Origin: an uncultured Methanomicrobiales archaeon
GTDB lineage: Archaea > Thermoplasmatota > Thermoplasmata > Methanomassiliicoccales > Methanomethylophilaceae
Direction: 5' to 3'
NCBI GenBank assembly: GCA_946528255.1
Contig: CAMMYR010000018.1
Coordinates: 1-8,482 of the forward strand
DNA length: 8,482 nt
A program made the translations under genes and the position numbers. The notes beneath the pieces are model-generated. The model worked only from the letters and a program-made list of their open reading frames with translations. It had not been told where the DNA came from and did no database searches. Below, piece by piece: positions 1 through 8,482 of this stretch. How positions within the stretch are numbered: the stretch's first letter is position 1; each line of letters opens with the position of its first letter.

Positions 1-1
1 G

Positions 2-187
2 TACGAGGACACCATCGTCTCGGGGTCTTCCGGCTTCGCCGAGGAGGACGATGATATCATCGATCTGCTCAAGCATGGCCAGATCCCGGCATCCGATTCC
101 AGGGACAACAAATGGATCATCGTCGCCACCGCCGGCGCCATAGCCGCCGTGTGCTGCGCGCTGGTACTCGCGGTCTTCAGGAAGCGA
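2..187 (+). CDS. C-terminal part of a membrane-anchored surface protein (partial)
   Basis: The 61 visible residues run off the left edge of the window. They show an acidic stretch (EEDDDII, around residues 14-20), a polar linker, then one hydrophobic segment at about residues 38-59 starting WIIVATAG, and a basic end, FRK. That is the usual layout of a single C-terminal membrane anchor with the bulk of the protein outside the cell. The family cannot be named from this piece. The frame meets CGA at 185-187 right after FRK, which is where an anchor like this normally stops. Read as arginine, the frame continues 19 more codons across the cysS promoter to TGA at 245-247, overlapping the cysS start by 10 nt. 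I place the end at the CGA. The protein type is moderately sure; its identity is unknown. Confidence 0.6.
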
Positions 188-204
188 GGCTCTCCAAGTA
201 GCCA

Positions 205-214
205 CATTTATCTA
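205..214 (+). promoter_or_regulatory. TATA-like element of cysS
   Basis: CATTTATCTA lies about 24-33 nt before the cysS ATG, in a short AT-rich patch of otherwise GC-rich DNA, consistent with an archaeal TATA box and a very short leader. A GAGGG at 229-233 could serve as ribosome binding site, 4 nt from the ATG. The element sits beyond the CGA that ends the upstream gene, as expected if transcription units separate here. Confidence 0.4.
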
Positions 215-237
215 CCCCGCGCCACTACGAGGGTTCA

Positions 238-1665
238 ATGTCCCTGATGATCCAAAACACCCTCACGAACGCCAAGGAGGAGTTCGTGACAGTCGAGCCC
301 GGCAAGGTCAGGATGTACGTATGCGGCGTGACCGTCTACGACGACATCCACATGGGCCACGCCAGGAGCATGATCGTGTTCGATACCGTCGCCCGCTACC
401 TGCGCTATCTGGGCTACGAGGTCACCCACGTCACCAATTTCACCGATGTGGATGACAAGATCATCATCAGGGCCGCCAAGGAGGGCATCGAGCCGCTGGA
501 GCTGTCCCGCAGGTACATCGACAGGTACTTCGAGGATGCCCAGAAGCTCGGCATCAACAAGGCCGACATCTATCCGAAAGCGAGCGAGTCCATACAGGAC
601 ATCATCGATATGGTGCAGTCCATAATCGACAGCGGATTCGCCTATCCCGCGCCCGATGGGAGCGTCTACTTCTCCGTGGCCAAGGTCAAGGATTACGGGA
701 AGCTCAGCGGCAGGAAGCTGGAGGATATGCAGTCCTCCGGCAGGATCGAGAACGACCCCAACAAGAAGGATCCGATGGACTTCGCCCTCTGGAAGGGCGC
801 CAAGCCCGGAGAGGTGTCCTGGCCTTCCCCCTGGGGCGAGGGCAGGCCCGGCTGGCACATAGAATGCTCGGCCATGATCAAGAGGTACCTCGGGGACGAG
901 ATCGACATCCACGGCGGAGGGAACGACCTGATCTTCCCCCACCACGAGAACGAGATCCTGCAGACCGAGGCGGTCACCGGGAAGCCCCTGTCCAGGTACT
1001 GGATGCACAACGGCATGCTGCAGGTCAAGGGCGTCGGGAACTCCAAGGAGGAGAAGATGTCCAAGTCACTTGGCAATTTCTTCACGGTCAAGGACGTCGC
1101 CGCCAAGTTCGATACCCAGACCATCAGATTCTACTTCCTCAACACCCACTACAGGAGTCCCCTCGTCTATGGGGAGGACATGCTGAAGGAGGCCGAGACA
1201 TCTCTCGGAAGGTTGGTCAACAACTACCGCGACCTCCAGGCATATGCCAGGACCGCCCCCGAGGGCGATGCGGAGTCCGATGACGTGTGCGATTCTATAG
1301 AATCCTACAGGGCCTCTTTCAGAGCCGCCATGGACGACGATTTCAACACCCGCCGTGCCATCGAGACGATGTTCGAGATGGCCAGGGCCACCAACCGCGC
1401 CATGGGCGACAAGACCCTGTCCAAGAAGGCCGCCGGCAAGTACATCGCGCTGATCGACGAGTTCAACGGCATCCTCAACATCATGCCCCCGGAGGAGGAG
1501 TCCGGAGAGGGGATGGAGGATGTAATGTCGATTCTCATAGACCTGCGCTCCGAGCTCAGGAAGAGGAAGATGTACGATCTGGCAGACATGATCCGCGACA
1601 GGCTCAAAGATGCAGGGATCGTGCTCGAGGATTCCGCAGACGGCGTCAAGTGGAAGAAGTCCCGA
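238..1665 (+). CDS. cysS: Cysteinyl-tRNA synthetase
   Basis: Class I aminoacyl-tRNA synthetase that attaches cysteine to tRNA-Cys in the cytoplasm. The 475-residue protein shows the expected signatures in order: [10 protein letters not shown] with the zinc-ligand cysteine C29, the HIGH-type motif HMGH at 38-41, FTDVDDKI around 68-75, GWHIEC at 205-210, [15 protein letters not shown] at 225-239 and KMSKS at 273-277, then the helical tRNA-binding region. The C-terminus reads [13 protein letters not shown], a typical end for this family, and is followed at once by CGA at 1663-1665. The length fits the family's usual 460-480 residues. Read as arginine, the CGA lets the frame run 43 residues (total 518, TGA ending at 1794) antisense through the 3' end of ncsA, and that tail does not look like cysteinyl-tRNA synthetase. 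Function is certain; the end rests on the CGA interpretation. Confidence 0.95.
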
Positions 1666-1672
1666 ATCGGGA
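1660..1672. other. Tail-to-tail junction of cysS and ncsA with two facing CGA codons
   Basis: The cysS CGA (1663-1665, +) and the ncsA CGA (1669-1667, -) face each other with one base between them, inside the 13-nt inverted repeat TCCCGAATCGGGA. Both proteins have reached their family-typical ends here. Replacing each CGA with TGA gives TCCTGAATCAGGA, an ordinary compact convergent stop pair that is also symmetrical. Confidence 0.7.
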
Positions 1673-2581
1673 GAGCTTGCGCCTGGCATCCTCCAGGAGC
1701 TGGCACCCCTTGCACCTATCCCCCACGGTGGGTTCCCCGCACTGGCACAGGTGGAGGTTCGATTGGGCGTATTCCTCCCTCAGGATCGGCCTGAGGGTGT
1801 CGTAAGAGGACATTATGCTGTACCTGGCACCGGGCGTGCGGTCCTCCAGGTCATCCACGATATCGCGGTACTGGTTCCTCAGGGCCTCGGTCCAGTAAGG
1901 GCACTCCCCGTTCCAGAATTCCAGCCCGGTGACCATCGCGTAGAGCAGGCACTCCTTCTCGGGGATCATCCTCAAGGGCAGGAATCTGGGTATCAGGCCG
2001 GGCTGCACCACCGTATGGGGCCCGAGCCTGGCCAACCTCTCCACATCCCCTCTGACGAAGTTCATCATTACCGACTGGCACATGTCGTCGAGATTGTGGC
2101 CGGTAGCCAGGAACTTAGCTCCGATATTCCTGGCTTCGTCGTTCATGAGCCTGCGCCTGAAGACCCCGCAGTAGGTGCAGGGGGAGCTGTCGCGCTCCAG
2201 CGGGGCGATGGCATCCATCGTCACTCCAAGCTCGGAGAACGAGCGGAGGTGGAACTCAATGTCGTTGGATTCGCAGAACCTGCGGACGATATCGACGCTC
2301 GGAGGGCGGTATCCCTCTATCCCCTCGTCGATGGTGATCGCGTGTACCATGGTGCCGTTGACCTCGCCGAAGACCGATGAGACGATCTTCAGGGCGACCA
2401 TGCTGTCCTTGCCGCCGGATACCGCGACGGCGATATCGTCGCCGGGATGGACGTCGATCTGTTTCCTGATCTCCCTCTTCACCCTCTTCTCCACGAATCT
2501 GGCGAAGTGCTCCCCGCACAGGTGGGAGCCGTTGTAGCGGATGAAGGTGACCGCATCGCGGCCGCAGGAATCGCACTTCAT
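1667..2581 (-). CDS. ncsA: tRNA 2-thiolation protein, NcsA/TtuA/CTU1 family (TIGR00269-like)
   Basis: Adenylates a uridine in tRNA and replaces its oxygen with sulfur (2-thiouridine synthesis). In order, the 304 residues show an N-terminal zinc site (C3, C6, C22, H25), the PP-loop SGGKDS at 55-60 that binds ATP, CTYCG with C135 and C138, GHNLDD at 161-166, C227 in ECPY, and a C-terminal zinc site (C279, C281, C290, C293). In characterised TtuA/NcsA proteins three cysteines equivalent to C135, C138 and C227 hold a [4Fe-4S] cluster. The ATG at 2581 is preceded by GAGG and overlaps the end of cdc6 by 11 nt, so it is the last gene of a leftward operon. The frame meets CGA at 1669-1667 after ARRKLS, one base from the cysS end. 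The conventional frame adds only six residues, to TGA at 1648-1646. NcsA versus TtuA naming is uncertain. Confidence 0.9.
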
Positions 2582-3749
2582 CCGATCCCTCTTTGCCCGA
2601 ATCCAGGATCTCCGCCATCTTGTCGGCTAGGACCTTGGACGGGATGTCGGGTATGGATATCAGGGTGGTCCTGCCGCTGCCGTCGCTGCGGACCTCCGTG
2701 CGGACGATCCCGGACCTCTCCAGGTCCTGGATGTACCCCCAGAACTGCGTGTGCTTCCTGGCGGGGTACTCGTACTCCTCGCAGACGATGGCATAGGTCT
2801 TCTCGGCCGCGGATATGGGGATCTCGGCGTTGGCCTTCATCGCCCTGGATACGGCCAGAAGGGCCAGCCTGTGGTTCATGTCGAGTGCCACCAGCTTCGT
2901 GAACGACACCGAGCTGTATATCATGGCCTTGGCGGCGCGGACGTGCTCCGGGGTGATCTCCCCGATGGTATCGTCCTCGGCGATCTGGGCGGATTTCTCC
3001 AGGAGCTCTATGGCCATCCTGGCGTCCCCGTAGTCGCAGGACACTTTGGCGATCATCCCGATGGACTCATCGGAGATCTTCCCAGGCATTATCGCCTCCT
3101 CCGACCTGCATTGGACGATGTCGTACAGCTCGTGCTCGGTGTATTTGTTGAAGAGCACCTTGTTGGCGCGTTTGAAAGTGGAAAGCGATGCCTGGTCCAG
3201 CAGCCCGTCGAGGCTGTACTGGGAGATCATTATCAGCGATACCCTGCCGACGGACTCGGTGCCGTCGGAGAAGCGGGTGAGCTGGTACACGAGGTCGATC
3301 CCGCCCTTCTTCAGGAGCAGGTCCACCTCGTCCAGGATTATCACGATGTTCCTGGTGTTTCCTGCCAGATGCGTCCTGAGGACCCTGGACATCTCCTCGG
3401 TGGAGAACCCCCTGTCCGGGAACCCCTTGTCGAAGTGCCTTATGAGCTGGAGCACCACGGCGGATTCGGAGTTCCTGTTCCTGCAGTTCACCAGTATGGT
3501 GTCCAGCGGCGTTCCTTTGGAATTGCAGTACTCGGTCATATCGGCGCAGAAGCGCCTGGCGGTGACCGTCTTTCCGGTTCCCACGCCGCCGGTGAGGAAC
3601 GCGGTGCAGGCGCGGCCCTCCCTGGCCAGGGGGGTGAAAAGAAGCTCCAGGGTGTGGAGCTGCTCCTCCCTGTTGACCAGCACCTTCGGTACGTAGTCGT
3701 AGTCCAGTTTGGATCCGTCGCGGATGATTGTCGATGACCTCTCGAACAT
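2571..3749 (-). CDS. cdc6: Orc1/Cdc6 family replication initiator
   Basis: AAA+ ATPase that in archaea binds replication origins and helps load the MCM helicase. The 392-residue protein shows Walker A GGVGTGKT at 54-61, Walker B IVIILDEVD at 135-143, a sensor 1-like ISQ near 175-177, sensor 2 GDAR at 241-244, and a C-terminal winged-helix region at about 285-370. Length is typical. The ATG follows an AGGA and comes 1 nt after the end of the nif3-like gene. The frame meets CGA at 2573-2571 after GKEGSDEV, 11 nt into ncsA, a normal operon overlap. Read as arginine, the frame goes on 105 residues to TGA at 2258-2256, all of it ncsA sequence in the wrong frame and very rich in arginine, so that tail is not a domain. 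I saw no origin-like intergenic repeats beside this gene; it lies inside an operon. Confidence 0.92.
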
Positions 3750-3750
3750 C

Positions 3751-4707
3751 TCGATTCCTGCTGAAGCGTGTGAAACCGGAGCAGGGGAGCACGTCTATGC
3801 CCTCCCTCTCCCAGACATCGCACAGGAGGTTGATCCCCAGCGAGTCGGATGACATGTGGCCGGATATGACCAGGTTGACATGGGCCTCCCTGGCCGCATC
3901 GTAGTGGTTGTCGGGGAAGTGCATGCCCACGACCGTTCCAACGCCGGCATCGGCGAGGGCCTTGTAGATGTCCTTGGGCGCGGATGTGCCGCCGTTCATC
4001 TTGCAGACGATCCTGCCGCAGCGGGCGGTCTTGGATCCGACGGCGATGTTCGGCGGGCTGTTGCATTTCGCCGCCTCCCTGAATTCGGGCTCCTTGTACA
4101 GGGAATCCACCAGGTCGCCCAGGGTGCGGGGCTCCTCCCTCTCGAAGAAATCGGTGAGGTAGGCCTGCACCATGTTGTCGGCGGGGCAGTGGATGTTCAT
4201 GATCGGGATGCCCAGGAGCTTCGCCGCATCGACTGCCTGGTTGTAGTTCAGCCCCTGCATGGCCTGGAGGACCTCGTTCATCCTCGGTCCCACCAGCGCC
4301 TCGGCGATGTTGATCGGCACGCCCTGGTTGTGGAACAGGTCCGACTGGAGGGCGATGACCTCCGGGAAGCGGGTGCGGGCGGTCCCGAGGGGGTGGTGGC
4401 CGACGATCGCGGAGATCGTCTCGCCCTTCTCCCTGAGCCTGTCTGCCAGGAGGACCTCGGCCGGGCCGATGTCGATGCCCCACATCATGCGTACAGCATC
4501 GATGTCCTCATCTGGGAGGTACGACAGCCTGGTGTCCGCGTAGGGGTTCCACAGGCGCTCCGTGTCGTAGAGCTCCCTGCGGTCCTCCGGGAGGGCGTCG
4601 TGGGTGGATCTGGCATCCGCCAGGATCCTGTCCACCTCGTCCTTGGGGCGGACGTCCTTGGACATGCCAGTCTCGACGGCCAGCCTGTAGGCTTCCTGAA
4701 TCTTCAT
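3751..4707 (-). CDS. NIF3-like (NGG1p-interacting factor 3 family) putative metal-binding protein
   Basis: The NIF3 family is conserved in all domains but its reaction is unknown; members form rings with a two-metal site. This 318-residue protein shows GHHPLG at 103-108 and HMSSDSLG at 284-291 near the C-terminus, which match the histidine-containing metal-binding motifs of the family, plus H173 in NIHCP. A long N-terminal helical extension (about residues 1-95) precedes the core. It has its own TATA element and leads a tight run with cdc6 and ncsA. The protein ends CSGFTRFSRN, followed by CGA at 3753-3751, 1 nt before the cdc6 ATG (CGAGATG). A second in-frame CGA lies three codons on (3744-3742). 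Read as arginine, the frame continues through cdc6 in the wrong frame to 3067 (546 residues). Family assignment is fairly sure, function unknown. Confidence 0.8.
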
Positions 4708-4730
4708 GAGCGGGAGTATCCTTCATCGGG

Positions 4731-4742
4731 CGTTATATATTT
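4731..4742 (-). promoter_or_regulatory. TATA element of the nif3-cdc6-ncsA operon
   Basis: On the minus strand AAATATATAACG sits about 24-35 nt before the nif3-like ATG at 4707, a canonical archaeal position for a leaderless or nearly leaderless transcript. No strong ribosome binding site precedes that ATG, which agrees. This is probably the main promoter for all three genes, because cdc6 and ncsA have no intergenic space of their own. Confidence 0.55.
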
Positions 4743-4758
4743 GCGCCCGCGCGGGGAC

Positions 4759-4899
4759 TCACTCGATGAATCCGATGATCGAGTTGATGTCGTCGTTGTT
4801 GCGCCTGTTGTCCCTGCGCCTGTCCTTCTTGCTCCCCTGGGGGATGTTCTGCTTCGGGAGGGGCATGAGTATCGTCTGGTAGGTTGACATTGTCTTCAT
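4759..4899 (-). CDS. Small basic protein of unknown function, 46 residues
   Basis: I do not recognise this protein. The ATG at 4899 has GGAG directly before it; a second ATG at 4890 is 9 nt from the same GGAG and may be the true start (43 residues). The protein begins MKTMSTYQTILMPLPKQ, has a charged middle (KKDRRRDNRRNNDD) and a short hydrophobic end (IIGFIE). Third codon positions are strongly G or C and arginines are AGG or CGC, as in the surrounding genes, which supports real coding. A TATA-like element lies about 50 nt upstream. It ends in TGA (4761-4759), unlike the ten larger genes here, which reach CGA. A 64-residue ORF in another frame over the same DNA looks non-coding. Confidence 0.55.
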   Translation of the reverse strand: MKTMSTYQTILMPLPKQNIPQGSKKDRRRDNRRNNDDINSIIGFIE

Positions 4900-4947
4900 C
4901 TCCTGCGCCGGTCCTCGCCGGCTGCATTACTAAGACTGCGGACAGGG

Positions 4948-4955
4948 TATAATAA
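4948..4955 (-). promoter_or_regulatory. TATA-like element of the small-protein gene
   Basis: TTATTATA on the minus strand lies 49-56 nt before the ATG at 4899. Transcription would start near 4923 and give a leader of about 24 nt carrying the GGAG site. The AT-rich sequence here is short, and the same patch adjoins a tandem repeat, so regulation through the repeat is possible but not shown. Confidence 0.35.
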
Positions 4956-4959
4956 CTGC

Positions 4960-4995
4960 TGTTTGTAATGTTTGTAATAGTTGTAATAAATGTAA
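4960..4995. repeat. Four tandem 9-bp units (NNNNTGTAA)
   Basis: Read on the plus strand the units are TGTTTGTAA, TGTTTGTAA, TAGTTGTAA and TAAATGTAA, contiguous, sharing TGTAA at their ends. They lie just downstream of the CGA end of the DUF6293-type gene and upstream of the small-protein promoter. The spacing is nearly one helical turn, which would place the units on about the same face of the DNA. They could be a protein-binding array, a transcript-end element, or simple low-complexity drift. Under the conventional code they would encode a repetitive LQ-rich tail on the upstream protein. Confidence 0.6.
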
Positions 4996-5034
4996 AGCAG
5001 GGTGCGCCGACGGATAGTCAGCCAGCATCCCGAT

Positions 5035-5856
5035 TCGGTCGCGGTAGAAGGTATCGATGATGTTCTCGCCATCGGGCGTGACGATGTACCTGTTCCTCAG
5101 ATCGTCCTTCTCCGCCCAACCGCGGGACACCCATTTCGCGATGAAATCCCTCTGATAGTAGACGGCTTCGGTCTGCTTGATCTTGGAAGGGTCCTTGTTT
5201 CCCGATCCGGTATCCCTGTACCAGCATCCCGCTTCCTTGAGGCAGGGGATCATCGCACCGGCGGTGACGGAGAGCTTGGAATCGCTCCTCTCCTTCAGGA
5301 TCCTCAATCCGCGGACCAGGTGCTCCTCTGGGATGTCGATGCTGTAGCTGGGCATGGACCTCGGCTCGTACGTGGATTTGGTGAGGCCCATGGGCTTCCC
5401 ATCGACGAAGTACAGCTCCTCGATCTTATCGTCGGATACCGTGTACTCCCTGGTGCCCACGGAGAACGGGGTGGTCCCGGGCACCATCATGGCGGCGATG
5501 GCCGCAGCCGCGGCGTATTCGGATGTCCCGGACGAGATGTTCACGAAGATTTCGCAATCCGGCTCCGCCGCCCTCTCCTGCTGGATTATGGACAGCACGG
5601 TCTTCAGCATGGCGGAGAAGTCGCTGACGCGGTCGTTGTGCTCCACGACCTCCACATCCCTGTTCATGGAACCGATGATATCTATCACACGGCCGTAGAA
5701 CGCCGAGTACATCCTGGCGCGGTCGCCGGCCCCGTCCTTCAGGTAGTGGATGATGTGGGCCCTGTTGACCTCGTAGAACTGGATCGGGTCCGTGACCTTC
5801 ACCGTCTCGAAGGTCACGCAAGCAATCATGATGCGGTTCCTGCGTCCCGACGGCAT
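5035..5856 (-). CDS. CARF-like plus winged-helix regulator, HFX_2341 (DUF6293) type
   Basis: Probable DNA-binding regulator of 273 residues. The N-terminal part (about 1-155) has a Rossmann-like pattern. It includes a short strand IMIACVTFE (9-17) and the motif FVNISSGTSE at 104-113 followed by an alanine-rich helix, resembling the ligand-binding loop of CARF domains. The C-terminal part (about 176-270) reads as a winged helix, with YYQRDFIAKWVSRGWAEK before a wing and IVTPDGENIID at the end. I chose the ATG at 5856 because a TATA element ends 25 nt upstream; the ORF's earlier ATG at 5937 would translate through that element. The frame meets CGA at 5037-5035 after DTFYRD. Read as arginine, it adds 34 residues through the 9-bp repeat to TAG at 4932-4930. 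No CRISPR array or cas gene is visible. The ligand and targets are unknown. Confidence 0.75.
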
Positions 5857-5880
5857 GCCCCGATGATAGCCGAGGTAGCG

Positions 5881-5886
5881 TATAAT
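5881..5886 (-). promoter_or_regulatory. TATA element of the CARF-like regulator gene
   Basis: ATTATA on the minus strand is 25-30 nt before the chosen ATG at 5856, the expected spacing for a leaderless archaeal transcript. An additional AT-rich stretch nearer the tRNA (5921-5930) could act in either direction. Confidence 0.45.
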
Positions 5887-5920
5887 CCCTGCGAAATCAT
5901 GCGCTGCGAGAACCAAAATG

Positions 5921-5930
5921 CTTTTATTAT
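5921..5930 (+). promoter_or_regulatory. TATA-like element of tRNA-Arg
   Basis: CTTTTATTAT lies about 24-33 nt before the first base of the mature tRNA, a standard position for an archaeal tRNA promoter. It is followed by a 12-nt palindrome at 5933-5944. Confidence 0.5.
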
Positions 5931-5932
5931 CG

Positions 5933-5944
5933 ACCAATATTGGT
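5933..5944. repeat. 12-nt perfect palindrome upstream of tRNA-Arg
   Basis: ACCAATATTGGT reads the same on both strands and falls between the TATA element and the tRNA, about 10-21 nt before the mature 5' end, so near the expected transcription start. It could be an operator for a dimeric regulator such as the divergent winged-helix gene next door. A chance palindrome of this length in one window is uncommon but possible. Confidence 0.5.
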
Positions 5945-5953
5945 GGAAATAAC

Positions 5954-6031
5954 GGACGAGTGGCCTAGCCTGGATATGGCGGCAGCCTCCTAAGCTGCAA
6001 GCCAAGGGTTCGAATCCCTTCTCGTTCGCCA
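5954..6031 (+). tRNA. tRNA-Arg (anticodon CCT, reads AGG), CCA encoded
   Basis: A full cloverleaf folds by eye. The acceptor arm is GGACGAG with CTCGTTC (one G-U pair), and the D arm has GCC/GGC. The anticodon stem GCAGC/GCTGC encloses the loop CTCCTAA, and the T arm AAGGG/CCCTT encloses TTCGAAT. The discriminator is G, followed by a genomic CCA. The anticodon CCT decodes AGG, the dominant arginine codon in every gene here. No intron is present. A T-rich stretch follows and doubles as the promoter region of the next gene. Confidence 0.95.
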
Positions 6032-6043
6032 TTCTTTTATTCC
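6032..6043 (+). promoter_or_regulatory. T-rich tRNA end and TATA-like element of the reductase gene
   Basis: ATTCTTTTATTC directly follows the tRNA CCA and lies about 21-32 nt before the ATG at 6064. It can end the tRNA transcript (T-rich) and act as TATA element for the following gene, which then would have almost no leader. Confidence 0.4.
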
Positions 6044-6063
6044 ATCTCGGTTTAGGCTGTGCC

Positions 6064-7107
6064 ATGGAAGGCGTTTTCGATGCGATCGTGGTCGGCGCGG
6101 GGCCGGCAGGCTCCTCCGCGGCGCATCGCCTGTCGGAGCTCGGCATCGGGAGGATCCTGGTCATCGAGAGGCTTTCAGATGCGGCCTTCTCGAGGTACCA
6201 TTCCATCTGCGGGGAGGCGGTTAGCGACAGGTCGCTGAAGCGCGCCGGGGTCGAGCCGCTGGAGTCCATCCGCAGGGTGGACGGCATAGCGATATCCTTC
6301 CCCGAAGGGATAACCGTGGAAATCCCGGTTTCCGGCCATATAATCGACAGGGAGCGCATGGTCCGCCGCCTCCTGGACGGGAGCGGTGCGGAGCGCATCC
6401 GCGCCACGGTGCTCTTCGTGTCTGCCGATGGCGATAGTTATAAGGTATCCACCACCGCCGGCGAATTCAGGTCGGGGATCCTCATCGGCGCCGACGGCGC
6501 CCATTCCGTCGTCAGGAGGTGCGTATTCGGATCGTCCCCGGCGATGATGCTCCCGATAGAGAACTGCCTGATGGATGGCGAGGGGGGCCGCATGCTGGAC
6601 TTCGAGGTGGGCGGACGGAACAAAGGATTCTACTCCTGGAGGTTCCCTTCCCACGACGGTACGGTATCCGTGGGGTCCGTCAGGGGATGGTGCCGCCCGG
6701 AGGGCGCCGTGCCCACGGGGTCGCGCCACATACCCATCGGGAAGGTGGACAGGGTCCATGACGGCAACGGGTGCTATCTCGTCGGCGATGCCGCCGGGCT
6801 CCCCAATCCCCTGAGCTATGGGGGGATCGGCGCGGCGCTCATCTCCGGCAGGAAGGCGGCCGAGGCGGCCGCCGCGGGGAAGCCACGCGGTTATACGCGC
6901 TTCATAGGGCGCGACAGGATGTTCGATCCGAGGTTCATGGAGGTCCACGACGCGTTCAGCGGATGGGACGACGCGACGATACGGGATGCCATGTCCCCAT
7001 TCAGGAACGGGTACTCGGTGGCGAGGGGATTCCTAGCCATGCTCCGGAGGCCAGGATACGCCCGGATATACTTCGGATGCTGGGTTGGATTCAGGATCGG
7101 CTGGCGA
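6064..7107 (+). CDS. Geranylgeranyl reductase family FAD-dependent oxidoreductase
   Basis: Flavoprotein family that in archaea saturates the isoprenoid chains of membrane lipids; family members also reduce other isoprenoids, so the exact substrate is open. The 347-residue protein starts with a dinucleotide-binding fold VVGAGPAGSSAA at 9-20 ending in the acidic residue of VIER. It continues with ICGEAVSDRSL around 48-58, IGADGAHSVVRR at 141-152 (second FAD-contact motif) and GDAAGLPNPLSYGGIG at 241-256 (FAD phosphate and substrate region). It ends GCWVGFRIGW followed by CGA at 7105-7107. A T-rich hairpin comes next. Read as arginine, the frame crosses the 170-nt AT-rich spacer and fuses to the zinc-ribbon gene, with no stop until 8350-8352 (762 residues). 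CGG is used four times in this gene but CGA never before the end. Confidence 0.9.
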
Positions 7108-7114
7108 TTCAGCA

Positions 7115-7135
7115 GGCGGGCAGTTTTTTTCCGCC
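7115..7135 (+). terminator. Hairpin with T-run after the reductase gene
   Basis: GGCGG (7115-7119) and CCGCC (7131-7135) can pair around a loop that contains seven consecutive Ts (7124-7130). It starts 8 nt after the CGA, where a transcript end would be expected if translation stops there. The T-run is inside the loop rather than after the stem, so the T-run itself, the usual archaeal signal, is probably what matters. Confidence 0.45.
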
Positions 7136-7314
7136 AAACACTTGTATATAAAGCTACTCCAAACTGCTATGTAATTTTATTGATACTTCATTTAAAACTT
7201 CCTAATTCTAATCGTTTCATTGTTGGTTTAATTTATGTTATATATAAAAATTATCGGTCAAACCAAAAATCTATAAATATGATACAACATAATTGGAACT
7301 GGAGGGTAAGGGAG
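7136..7314. other. AT-rich intergenic spacer with candidate promoters
   Basis: About 180 nt markedly richer in A and T than anything else here. I find no RNA gene or convincing small ORF in it. It contains two TATA candidates: TTATATATAAAAA at 7238-7250 and CTATAAATA at 7271-7279. The continuous open frame through it is the readthrough from the reductase and shows codons foreign to the neighbouring genes (ATA, TTA, AAT, TAT), so it does not look translated. Confidence 0.6.
7271..7279 (+). promoter_or_regulatory. TATA element of the zinc-ribbon gene
   Basis: CTATAAATA would place the transcription start near 7298-7302, leaving a short leader with GGAGG at 7301-7305 ahead of a TTG start at 7315. 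The upstream candidate at 7238-7250 would instead give a leaderless transcript from the ATG at 7279. Confidence 0.45.
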
Positions 7315-7809
7315 TTGACGTATCAGCCGACAGGTGTGCTTAGGTGCGCTCGTTGTTCTTACATGTGGGTTCCCAGAAGAGACAAGGAACCCGAAAGGTG
7401 CCCCAGGTGCAGATCTGTCAAATGGAACATGCCTCATCTGACGGTCACCTGCAAGAGGTGCAATTATACTTGGAATTCCCACAACGGGACGCCCAAGAGG
7501 TGCCCGCAGTGCGGTTCCCATCAGTGGGATATCCCTCCGAGGGTCAACCACTGCCTCAGATGCAACAACACCTGGACGTCCAGATCCATGGCGGAACCCA
7601 GGCGTTGCCCCAAATGCTCGTCCACCGAATGGTTCCTGGACATCCCGATCAACGACAGGCAGAAGCGCTCGGTGGAGATCGAGGATTCGGTCCGCGAGAA
7701 GATCCTGGAGAAGCACCGCGAGGGCCTGAACAACATCCAGATAGCCATCACATGCGACATCCCGTTCAGCGTCGTCCAGAGCATCATCAGCGGCGAGAGC
7801 TCCGGCCGA
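7315..7809 (+). CDS. Triple zinc-ribbon protein with C-terminal helix-turn-helix-like segment
   Basis: Probable nucleic-acid-binding protein of 164 residues. Three tandem zinc ribbons share the pattern CxRC, a W, then RCPxC and W: C11/C14/C29/C32, C46/C49/C63/C66 and C80/C83/C98/C101. Each unit is about 35 residues. After them comes a segment (about 120-160, starting VEIEDSVREKILEKH) with a helix-turn-helix look: EGLNNIQIAITCDIPFSVVQSII. The TTG start is chosen because GGAGG lies 10 nt upstream and a TATA element lies just beyond it; an ATG at 7279 would add 12 residues but overlaps that element. The frame ends at CGA 7807-7809 after SGESSG, abutting the coiled-coil gene on the other strand. 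The conventional frame would run antisense through that gene to TAA-type or TGA stop at 8352. A specific function cannot be assigned. Confidence 0.75.
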
Positions 7810-7813
7810 TCGG
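7806..7813. other. Tail-to-tail junction of the zinc-ribbon and coiled-coil genes with two facing CGA codons
   Basis: CCGATCGG is an 8-bp palindrome holding the zinc-ribbon CGA (7807-7809, +) and the coiled-coil CGA (7812-7810, -) with no base between them. TGATCA in the centre would be an ordinary shared stop pair, so two changes on opposite strands separate this site from a standard junction. Confidence 0.65.
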
Positions 7814-8337
7814 TAATCCGGCGATTCCCTGATGGCTTGGGCCCTGCGCTTGGCCTTTATGTAGAGCTCGTGCTCGGCATCCGCTGCGCGGCGGAGCTCC
7901 ATGGCCTGCTCGTGATAGGTCTGGGCCTGCTGCCTCAGCGCATCGGCTTCCTCGGTAAGCTGCTTCATCTTCTCATGAGCCAGCTGTCCGCTGTTGGAGA
8001 ACTTCACCGCCTTCTGGTGGTAGTTGTTGGATTGGGATCTGGCCTCGCCGATGTCGCCCAGACCGCCGCGGGCCTTCATGGATGCGGCGCGGTCGTTCCA
8101 TTCGTCCCTCTTGCCGCGGGCCTCGATGGCGGAGTGATTGTAATCGTCGCGCCTGTCGCGCATGTACTTTGCCTCGGACGAGAGCTTCCTGGCCTTCTCC
8201 TGGAGCTGGTTGCGCTTGTCTATGAGCACGCTGGCCTGCCTGGAGTACTTGTCCCTGGCAGCCTTGTGCTTCACTGCGTCTTTCTCGGCCTCGCCGGCCA
8301 GGTCATCCAGGGTCCTCTCGCCTTCATATTCGTCCAT
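7810..8337 (-). CDS. Coiled-coil protein of unknown function
   Basis: The 175-residue protein is almost wholly helical and highly charged, with recurring units such as RDKYSRQA, KRNQLQEKARKL, RDRRDDYN and KRDEWN spaced for a long coiled coil. A short glycine-rich break (ARGGLGDIGEA, about residues 97-107) separates two coiled-coil halves. The composition resembles uncharacterised archaeal coiled-coil proteins (COG1340-like), but I cannot assign a role. It starts 4 nt after the end of the prephenate-dehydratase-like gene, so the two are probably cotranscribed. The frame meets CGA at 7812-7810 after IRESPDY. Read as arginine, it runs 184 more residues antisense through the zinc-ribbon gene and into the AT-rich spacer, to 7258. 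Confidence 0.75.
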
Positions 8338-8341
8338 GGAT

Positions 8342-8482
8342 TCGCTCCCTGATTCTCAGGAGATGGAATTCCGTCATATTGTCCTTGCGGTCCTCGATGT
8401 TCTCGTGGATCATCCTCAGCCCGAACATCTCGCCGGCGTTGGATCTGCAAAGCACAGCCACGGTATCGGGGAGCCTCCCCTC
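8342..8482 (-). CDS. pheA: C-terminal part of a prephenate-dehydratase-like protein (partial)
   Basis: Forty-six residues enter from the right edge of the window. The stretch AVLCRSNAGEMFGL, then HENIEDRKDNMTEFHLL, resembles the conserved end of prephenate dehydratases, where a similar 'AAELYGL... NIQDNPNNYTRF' pattern lies near the catalytic domain's end. In that family the enzyme turns prephenate into phenylpyruvate for phenylalanine synthesis. The usual T-R-F catalytic triplet reads T-E-F here, so either the enzyme has diverged or this is a related protein; I cannot check the rest. There is no C-terminal ACT domain after it. The frame reaches CGA at 8344-8342 after LLRIRE, 4 nt before the coiled-coil ATG. 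The conventional frame would add five residues and end at TGA 8326-8324, inside the next gene. Confidence 0.5.

Follow-up and report, generated by a model that had tools for sequence, protein, structure and literature searches.

The window analysed here, a stretch of 8,482 nucleotides from an uncultured archaeon (contig CAMMYR010000018.1), was examined for eleven genes, two of which are partial (a surface protein and a prephenate dehydratase-like gene), and in ten of them an in-frame CGA codon stands where the coding sequence should end. Conserved genes are found to end at CGA, a codon that hardly occurs within genes, and for this reason it probably serves as a fourth stop codon in several members of this family of archaea, which is related to methane producers; the ordinary archaeal release factor aRF1 is likely to read it there beside TGA, TAA and TAG. 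A first-pass annotation of this DNA had offered, as one of three readings, that CGA terminates translation in the lineage. This reading is supported, but it has to be worded as CGA beside TGA, TAA and TAG, because CGA accounts for only part of the called gene ends: 147/321 (46%) in SIG8, the metagenome-assembled genome closest to the window (SUTA01000001.1; handle G001), 86/296 (29%) in G009 and 54/292 (18%) in G008. SIG8 is thus the heaviest user of CGA stops among the genomes sampled at scale.

CGA at gene ends

All ten terminal CGA codons of the first-pass annotation were found at their positions and on their strands (Table 1). Inside the eleven genes, no in-frame CGA occurs among 2639 codons, against 220 other arginine codons, and yet the triplet is common over all frames of the window (194 on the + strand and 225 on the - strand). 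Ending the genes at CGA gives the annotated lengths of 475, 304, 392 and 318 amino acids. When CGA is read as arginine, the genes acquire tails of 20 (surface protein), 43 (cysS), 7 (ncsA), 105 (cdc6), 228 (nif3-like), 35 (CARF-like), 415 (reductase), 181 (zinc-ribbon), 184 (coiled-coil) and 6 (pheA-like) codons; the long tails announced before are real, the exact range being 6 to 415 codons and not 5 to over 200 residues. Around the reductase CGA, the GC fraction falls from 0.61 in the 174 nucleotides before the codon to 0.29 in the 174 after it. The small eleventh gene ends in TGA, which indicates that TGA is also a stop in the window.

The window was compared with eleven related loci from public genomes, several of whose titles name Methanomethylophilaceae. 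Homologues were present for nine of the ten CGA ends; for the surface protein none was found in the related genomes compared. Between the window and SIG8, ten homologous ends could be compared: CGA stands in both at six, CGA in the window faces TGA in SIG8 at three, and the reverse swap is seen at one. The six shared ends are at the identical codon in cdc6, nif3-like, CARF-like and reductase genes and at most two codons away from the aligned end in the zinc-ribbon and coiled-coil genes, and the three TGA ends of SIG8 lie one (cysS), seven (ncsA) and one (pheA) codons beyond the aligned end. In SIG8 the codons that follow CGA look unrelated at the CARF-like gene (ten codons) and at the reductase. 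Furthermore, third-position substitutions between the window and SIG8 switch to the frame of the downstream gene after CGA at both junctions tested (nif3 to cdc6 and cdc6 to ncsA). At the first of these the substitution rate is 0.31 at position 3 before CGA and 0.39 at the old-frame position 1 after it, and the second behaves alike.

That ten of ten larger genes end in this way is striking enough to raise the suspicion of an altered sequence record or an assembly artefact, as the first-pass annotation had done. The same phenomenon is seen in SIG8, G008 and G009, which are independent public genomes, and at one end it is the window that has TGA and SIG8 that has CGA. In the public protein cluster P0002 (15 member sequences from 17 contigs and three sources; 89% identical), the representative is a protein of 521 amino acids whose start lies in the small gene and which reads through the nif3-like gene into its tail. 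The window observation is confirmed as natural, and an artefact is extremely improbable. As P0002 exemplifies, standard gene callers merge adjacent genes in genomes with CGA stops.

Gene ends were then considered at genome scale in about 400 kb of SIG8, about 400 kb of G009, 386 kb of G008 and smaller stretches of other genomes. In a homology test, 263 open reading frames (ORFs) of the standard code from G002, G003 and G005 were used as queries, and alignments were retained, one per place, if they had at least 40% identity and stopped no more than 6 residues short of the query end. Conserved ends lacking TAA, TAG and TGA within the next 10 codons amounted to 35/77 in SIG8, 16/103 in G008, 16/50 in G009, 1/13 in G006, 1/12 in G010 and 5/6 in the window. 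CGA was present within that stretch in 31, 12, 10, 1, 1 and 5 of these nonstandard ends, respectively, and exactly at the stop position of the homologue in 18, 8, 6, 1, 1 and 4. With the same filters and one alignment per query and target genome, the homologues of SIG8 CGA ends were TGA in 25/25 cases in G002; TGA in 22 and TAA in 3 of 25 in G005; TGA in 15 and CGA in 1 of 16 in G003; TGA in 29, CGA in 8 and TAA in 1 of 38 in G008; and TGA in 7, CGA in 5 and none in 2 of 14 in G009. CGA and TGA are therefore seen to swap in frame at homologous gene ends, relatives having standard stops there. The CGA share of called ends was lower in G003 (5/51, 10%), G005 (8/124, 6%) and G002 (5/138, about 4%), low figures that may include miscalls.

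The coding character of the sequence after CGA was also assessed. With a model whose training treated CGA as a stop, the sequence after in-frame CGA in SIG8 was non-coding in 149, middle in 5 and coding in 8 of 162 cases, to be compared with 157, 3 and 5 of 165 after in-frame TGA; in G009, it was non-coding after CGA in 59/68.

Another reading offered by the first-pass annotation was that mRNA editing from C to U makes UGA of the terminal CGA. A single C-to-U change would turn each site into UGA, and the effect on gene ends would be the same; moreover, in G009 out-of-frame CGA matches the 'edited' residue of homologues somewhat more often (21/422 vs 27/1011). In SIG8, however, out-of-frame CGA matches the unedited residue about as often as other NCG codons do (473/662 vs 1537/2137), and the edited residue is matched in 13/662 and 46/2137 cases, respectively. 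A motif was sought and the context around CGA ends was found only weakly biased, and editing would need knowledge of the reading frame. Editing is thus a most improbable source of the terminal codons.

CGA inside genes and the arginine tRNA

For the interior of genes, only arginines aligned to arginine were counted, with at least 6 identities in the 15 columns on each side. CGA encodes 0/2883 such conserved arginines in SIG8 and 0/141 in the window. In two clades of the family, A and B (labels made in this analysis), the counts are 30/14909 and 12/2675, and CGA is the rarest arginine codon of both; in the rest of the family it encodes 79/4372 and outside the family 35/594. In the roughly 305,000 codons covered, with some stretches present twice, the aRF1 gene is nearly the only well-aligned case of an internal CGA. 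Ten other internal places are more weakly aligned and several of them look like gene junctions, although one in G002 looks real. The codon is therefore almost gone from conserved internal positions, aRF1 of clades A and B and about ten weak places excepted. Among the query ORFs, 80/263 contain CGA (226/100,914 codons), part of it being shadow or read-through. An internal-CGA listing and a count of CGA usage based on standard-code ORFs were dropped on account of antisense shadow frames.

These results were extended by a survey of 40 loci (up to about 20 kb each, 38% identity cut-off, only queries ending in TAA, TAG or TGA). Few CGA ends were seen in the loci of clades A and B, 0 to 2 per locus, and in most of these loci the only convincing internal CGA is that of aRF1. 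In G098, G102, G044, G097 and G100, CGA encodes arginine in many genes.

No tRNA-Arg(UCG) was recognised in SIG8 by an ARAGORN scan of all 43 Rfam tRNA places and of the fetched stretches. The 49 tRNAs called include arginine anticodons GCG, CCG, CCT and TCT and no TCG, and for the other four-codon boxes the U34 tRNAs are present; the list also lacks tRNA-Tyr and must for this reason be incomplete. A pattern search gave five matches in SIG8, of which one is a tRNA-Pro, three hold no tRNA and the fifth lies outside the 43 Rfam tRNA places. Genes for tRNA-Arg(UCG) were read in G002 and in G004 to G011.

The apparent loss of this tRNA in SIG8 suits another explanation, in which CGA has no decoder at all and ribosomes stalled at the empty codon are freed by aPelota/ABCE1 rescue instead of aRF1. 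This is improbable, though less so than editing. The tRNA gene is kept in G006, G008, G009 and G010, which use CGA ends, and in SIG8 about 46% of the called ends would have to be served by rescue, a slow process. In addition, it is the aRF1 gene that holds the strongly conserved internal CGA; the listing gave none within the pelota domain that was matched.

The release factor aRF1

One aRF1 bearing NIKS and GGQ was identified in each of 9 of the 11 genomes; none was found in G006 and G010. In the aRF1 tree, clade A and clade B each form one branch (100/100) and lineages reading CGA as arginine stand between them, the fork that parts A from B and these lineages being supported at 85/89. Exactly one CGA is found at a fixed site in 23/24 aRF1 genes of clade A, always as [GT]CT-CGA-CT, the exception being SIG8, with CGC at this site; the aRF1 gene of G069 was left out of the 24 and its CGA was seen separately. 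In clade B, 9/9 genes have one CGA, at codon 25. The reading frame runs on through the aRF1 CGA, and a full-length factor would be obtained with no +1 frameshift. The SIG8 aRF1 gene itself has CGA at its conserved C-terminus.

A conserved in-frame CGA within the gene of the factor that would read it recalls the autoregulation of bacterial RF2, and we propose that this codon acts as a sensor. When aRF1 is plentiful, synthesis would end at the internal CGA; when it is scarce, arginine would be inserted by tRNA-Arg(UCG), so that the supply of aRF1 would be gauged by the competition between release and this tRNA. An alternative that we consider unlikely, yet clearly more credible than the absence of a decoder, is that the internal CGA merely slows translation as a rare codon and is unrelated to termination. 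The rarity of CGA in both clades agrees with it, and so do the flanking bases, which do not clearly mark it as a weak stop. The context at the aRF1 CGA is T-CGA-C in 23/23 clade A genes and CGA-G in clade B, and at CGA ends the frequency of a preceding T is 7% in SIG8, 13% in G008 and 8% in G009, that of a following C 7%, 18% and 15%; the aRF1 context is disfavoured at gene ends in SIG8 and not clearly so in G008 and G009. Against a mere rare codon stand its position as nearly the only well-supported internal CGA in the codons covered, its fixed site in two separate clades, and the preceding T, kept through an Ala/Ser exchange in 23/23 clade A genes, in which T-ending Ala/Ser codons number 71/1119 elsewhere and 94/1142 with the 23 sites included.

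The codon pocket of the factor was compared as well. The position of human Arg68 is occupied by Met (56) or Leu (5) in 61/61 aRF1 of the family, and in outgroup Thermoplasmatota by Arg in 24/27, Met in 2 and Lys in 1; the human, haloarchaeal and Aeropyrum factors have Arg. A simulation predicts that with Ala in place of Arg68 the NIKS loop becomes looser and C at the first base is rejected less strongly (PMC5681627). Loss of Arg68 in an ancestor may likewise have made the factor more tolerant of C as the first base of a stop and turned CGA into a weak stop. Being read by a single rare tRNA, CGA would have become a poor sense codon, been purged from genes and then been captured as a stop at which aRF1 releases the nascent protein. 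The joint absence of tRNA-Arg(UCG) and of the aRF1 CGA in SIG8 fits a completed reassignment, in which tRNA and sensor codon are both apparently gone. CGA would then be a two-faced codon, terminating genes at their ends and standing for arginine almost exclusively within the aRF1 gene. This arrangement would have arisen in both clades, at a different site in each, and the SIG8 line, having given up tRNA-Arg(UCG) as well as the sensor, would have completed the switch and become the first cellular genome with four stops and the first natural case of a stop beginning with C. For this composite picture, drawn from comparative sequence data, we regard the chances as evenly balanced.

Besides the incomplete tRNA list of SIG8, several observations weigh against CGA being a stop read by aRF1 or against the proposed sensor. 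A check of aRF1 and of the arginine tRNAs, suggested with the first annotation, gave Met or Leu at the Arg68 position and no tRNA-Arg(UCG) in SIG8, but the tRNA is kept by the other users of CGA ends already named, where the competition that should follow is unaccounted for. G003 keeps the aRF1 CGA, and no tRNA-Arg(UCG) was recognised there among pattern hits, which were not followed further. No aRF1 residue near the codon pocket (NIKS and YxCxxxF motifs) is specific to the clades with CGA stops; Met or Leu at position 68 and an unchanged NIKS are common to relatives that use CGA as arginine, and the substitution would accordingly be permissive and not sufficient. The outgroups with Met68, G126 and G115, encode 2/80 and 0/14 conserved arginines by CGA, few codons in each case. 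At gene ends, 4/35 (SIG8), 4/16 (G008) and 6/16 (G009) nonstandard ends have no CGA either, and 8 of 162 CGA codons in SIG8, those followed by coding sequence, looked internal in the test whose training counted CGA among the stops. When standard-code ORFs served for training, the sequence after CGA was non-coding, middle and coding in 71, 22 and 20 cases in SIG8, 14, 13 and 32 in G008, and 22, 4 and 5 in G009; CGA-delimited training alongside gave 128, 6 and 3 (SIG8), 49, 3 and 2 (G008) and 47, 6 and 0 (G009). Many antisense shadow frames were noted among the matches listed for the standard-code training. As the coding contrast is weaker with this training, it is the homology test that bears the weight. 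In the survey, finally, eight clade A genomes (G059, G060 and G062 to G067) keep the aRF1 CGA and showed 0 CGA ends in 15 to 20 kb each, and single CGA ends were called also in G012, G021 and G058, outside both clades, so that single calls of this kind are at noise level.

Further CGA codons were observed in aRF1 genes. Those of G019, G020 and G021 (L168 to L170), near clade B in the tree, have CGA at codon 11, a third recurrent site, and that of G021 has a second one at codon 78. The aRF1 of G016 (L165) reads ILRYKV-CGA-TAG, where CGA is either the last arginine or a stop before TAG.

Known reassignments and further features of the window

To our knowledge, no known code uses a stop codon beginning with C, and cellular stops begin with U. 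If CGA is a stop in this family, it would break this rule and offer a natural setting in which to test first-base recognition by eRF1/aRF1. It would also be the first known sense-to-stop change outside mitochondria and plastids and would extend the phenomenon to free-living cells, and the graded share of CGA ends across related genomes (about 4% to 46%) would make codon-capture models testable. No report of a CGA stop in archaea was found in the open-licence PubMed Central (PMC) literature, as judged from titles and the beginnings of abstracts, preprints being outside this scope.

In Scenedesminia mitochondria, UCA is a stop, and the main driving force is proposed to be 'codon disappearance' (PMC6821328). 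As there, a sense codon vanishes from within genes and turns up at their ends; the Scenedesminia case differs in concerning an organelle with RF1-type factors that have mutations of their own, whereas here the genome is cellular and archaeal, the codon begins with C and there is a single aRF1. UUA and UCA (UYA) stops in peDinoflagellate plastids were called in 2025 the first sense-to-stop case outside mitochondria (PMC12574857). They share with CGA the restriction of a sense codon to the 3' ends of coding sequences, but belong again to an organelle, begin with U and are served by organellar RF1/RF2-type release factors. In bacteria, CGA and CGG were reassigned to Trp or Gln, tRNA-Arg(UCG) being missing in three Firmicute CGG cases (PMC8629427); rare CGN arginine codons change meaning in both situations, although the bacterial changes are sense-to-sense and occur in low-GC genomes. 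Codetta and its screen of 250,000 genomes are stated not to detect new stops (PMC9825746, PMC8629427).

Bacterial RF2 (prfB) is autoregulated through an in-frame UGA, and a read-through form of such control is described as not found in bacterial release factor genes (PMC5009743). In RF2 as in aRF1 the gene carries the codon that its factor reads or would read, and C follows the codon in clade A as it does in RF2. Unlike RF2, where a +1 frameshift is required, the frame continues here and full-length aRF1 would require CGA to be read as arginine. If the sensor exists, it would be the read-through form of release-factor self-control that PMC5009743 lists as absent in bacteria. A search of the open-licence PMC literature for aRF1 autoregulation gave, among the matches listed, only Arf1 GTPases or unrelated work.

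Table 1. Genes of the window, their terminal codons and the comparison with relatives.
Feature	Gene	Position	Strand	Basis
Surface-protein C-terminus, partial	2-184	CGA 185..187	+	sequence, with the look of a membrane anchor; weakest of the ten, no homologue among relatives
cysS	238-1662	CGA 1663..1665	+	TGA 0-1 codon beyond aligned end in 8/8 matched relatives
ncsA/TtuA-like	2581-1670	CGA 1667..1669	-	TGA within 7 codons in 9/10 matched relatives; in the tenth (L008) CGA stands before its TGA
cdc6/orc1	3749-2574	CGA 2571..2573	-	same codon CGA in SIG8, TGA in L011
'nif3-like'	4707-3754	CGA 3751..3753	-	same codon CGA in L001, L008 and L009; TGA in 8/11 relatives
Small eleventh gene	4896-4762	TGA 4759..4761	-	SIG8 homologue has CGA end
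HFX_2341/CARF-like regulator	5937-5038	CGA 5035..5037	-	SIG8 CGA at same codon
tRNA-Arg(CCT)		5954..6031	+	only tRNA called by ARAGORN in the window
FAD-dependent reductase	6064-7104	CGA 7105..7107	+	SIG8 CGA at same codon
Zinc-ribbon protein	7279-7806	CGA 7807..7809	+	SIG8 CGA two codons later
Coiled-coil DUF7121-like	8337-7813	CGA 7810..7812	-	SIG8 CGA one codon beyond aligned end, residue 173 of 175
Prephenate dehydratase-like (pheA-like), partial	8482-8345	CGA 8342..8344	-	SIG8 TGA one codon beyond aligned end

The name 'nif3-like', given in the first-pass annotation, could not be confirmed: no Pfam family matched the protein (3751-4707), despite 2833 homologues passing E 1e-60. Among the 120 of these that were listed, 113 are 306-342 amino acids long and 7 exceed 400, the read-through form of the window itself included. 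The over-long homologues P0040, P0108 and P0118 have R after the conserved ..SRN end and likely represent further species with CGA stops, to judge from their sequences; P0044 and P0117 are two more over-long homologues in public data among the matches listed.

In SIG8, coding continues after an in-frame TAG in 10/53 cases, and these TAG codons are perhaps pyrrolysine codons. At the junction of the convergent zinc-ribbon and coiled-coil genes, the back-to-back CGA stops form the palindrome CGATCG (7807-7812), and CGATCG is also found at the SIG8 junction.

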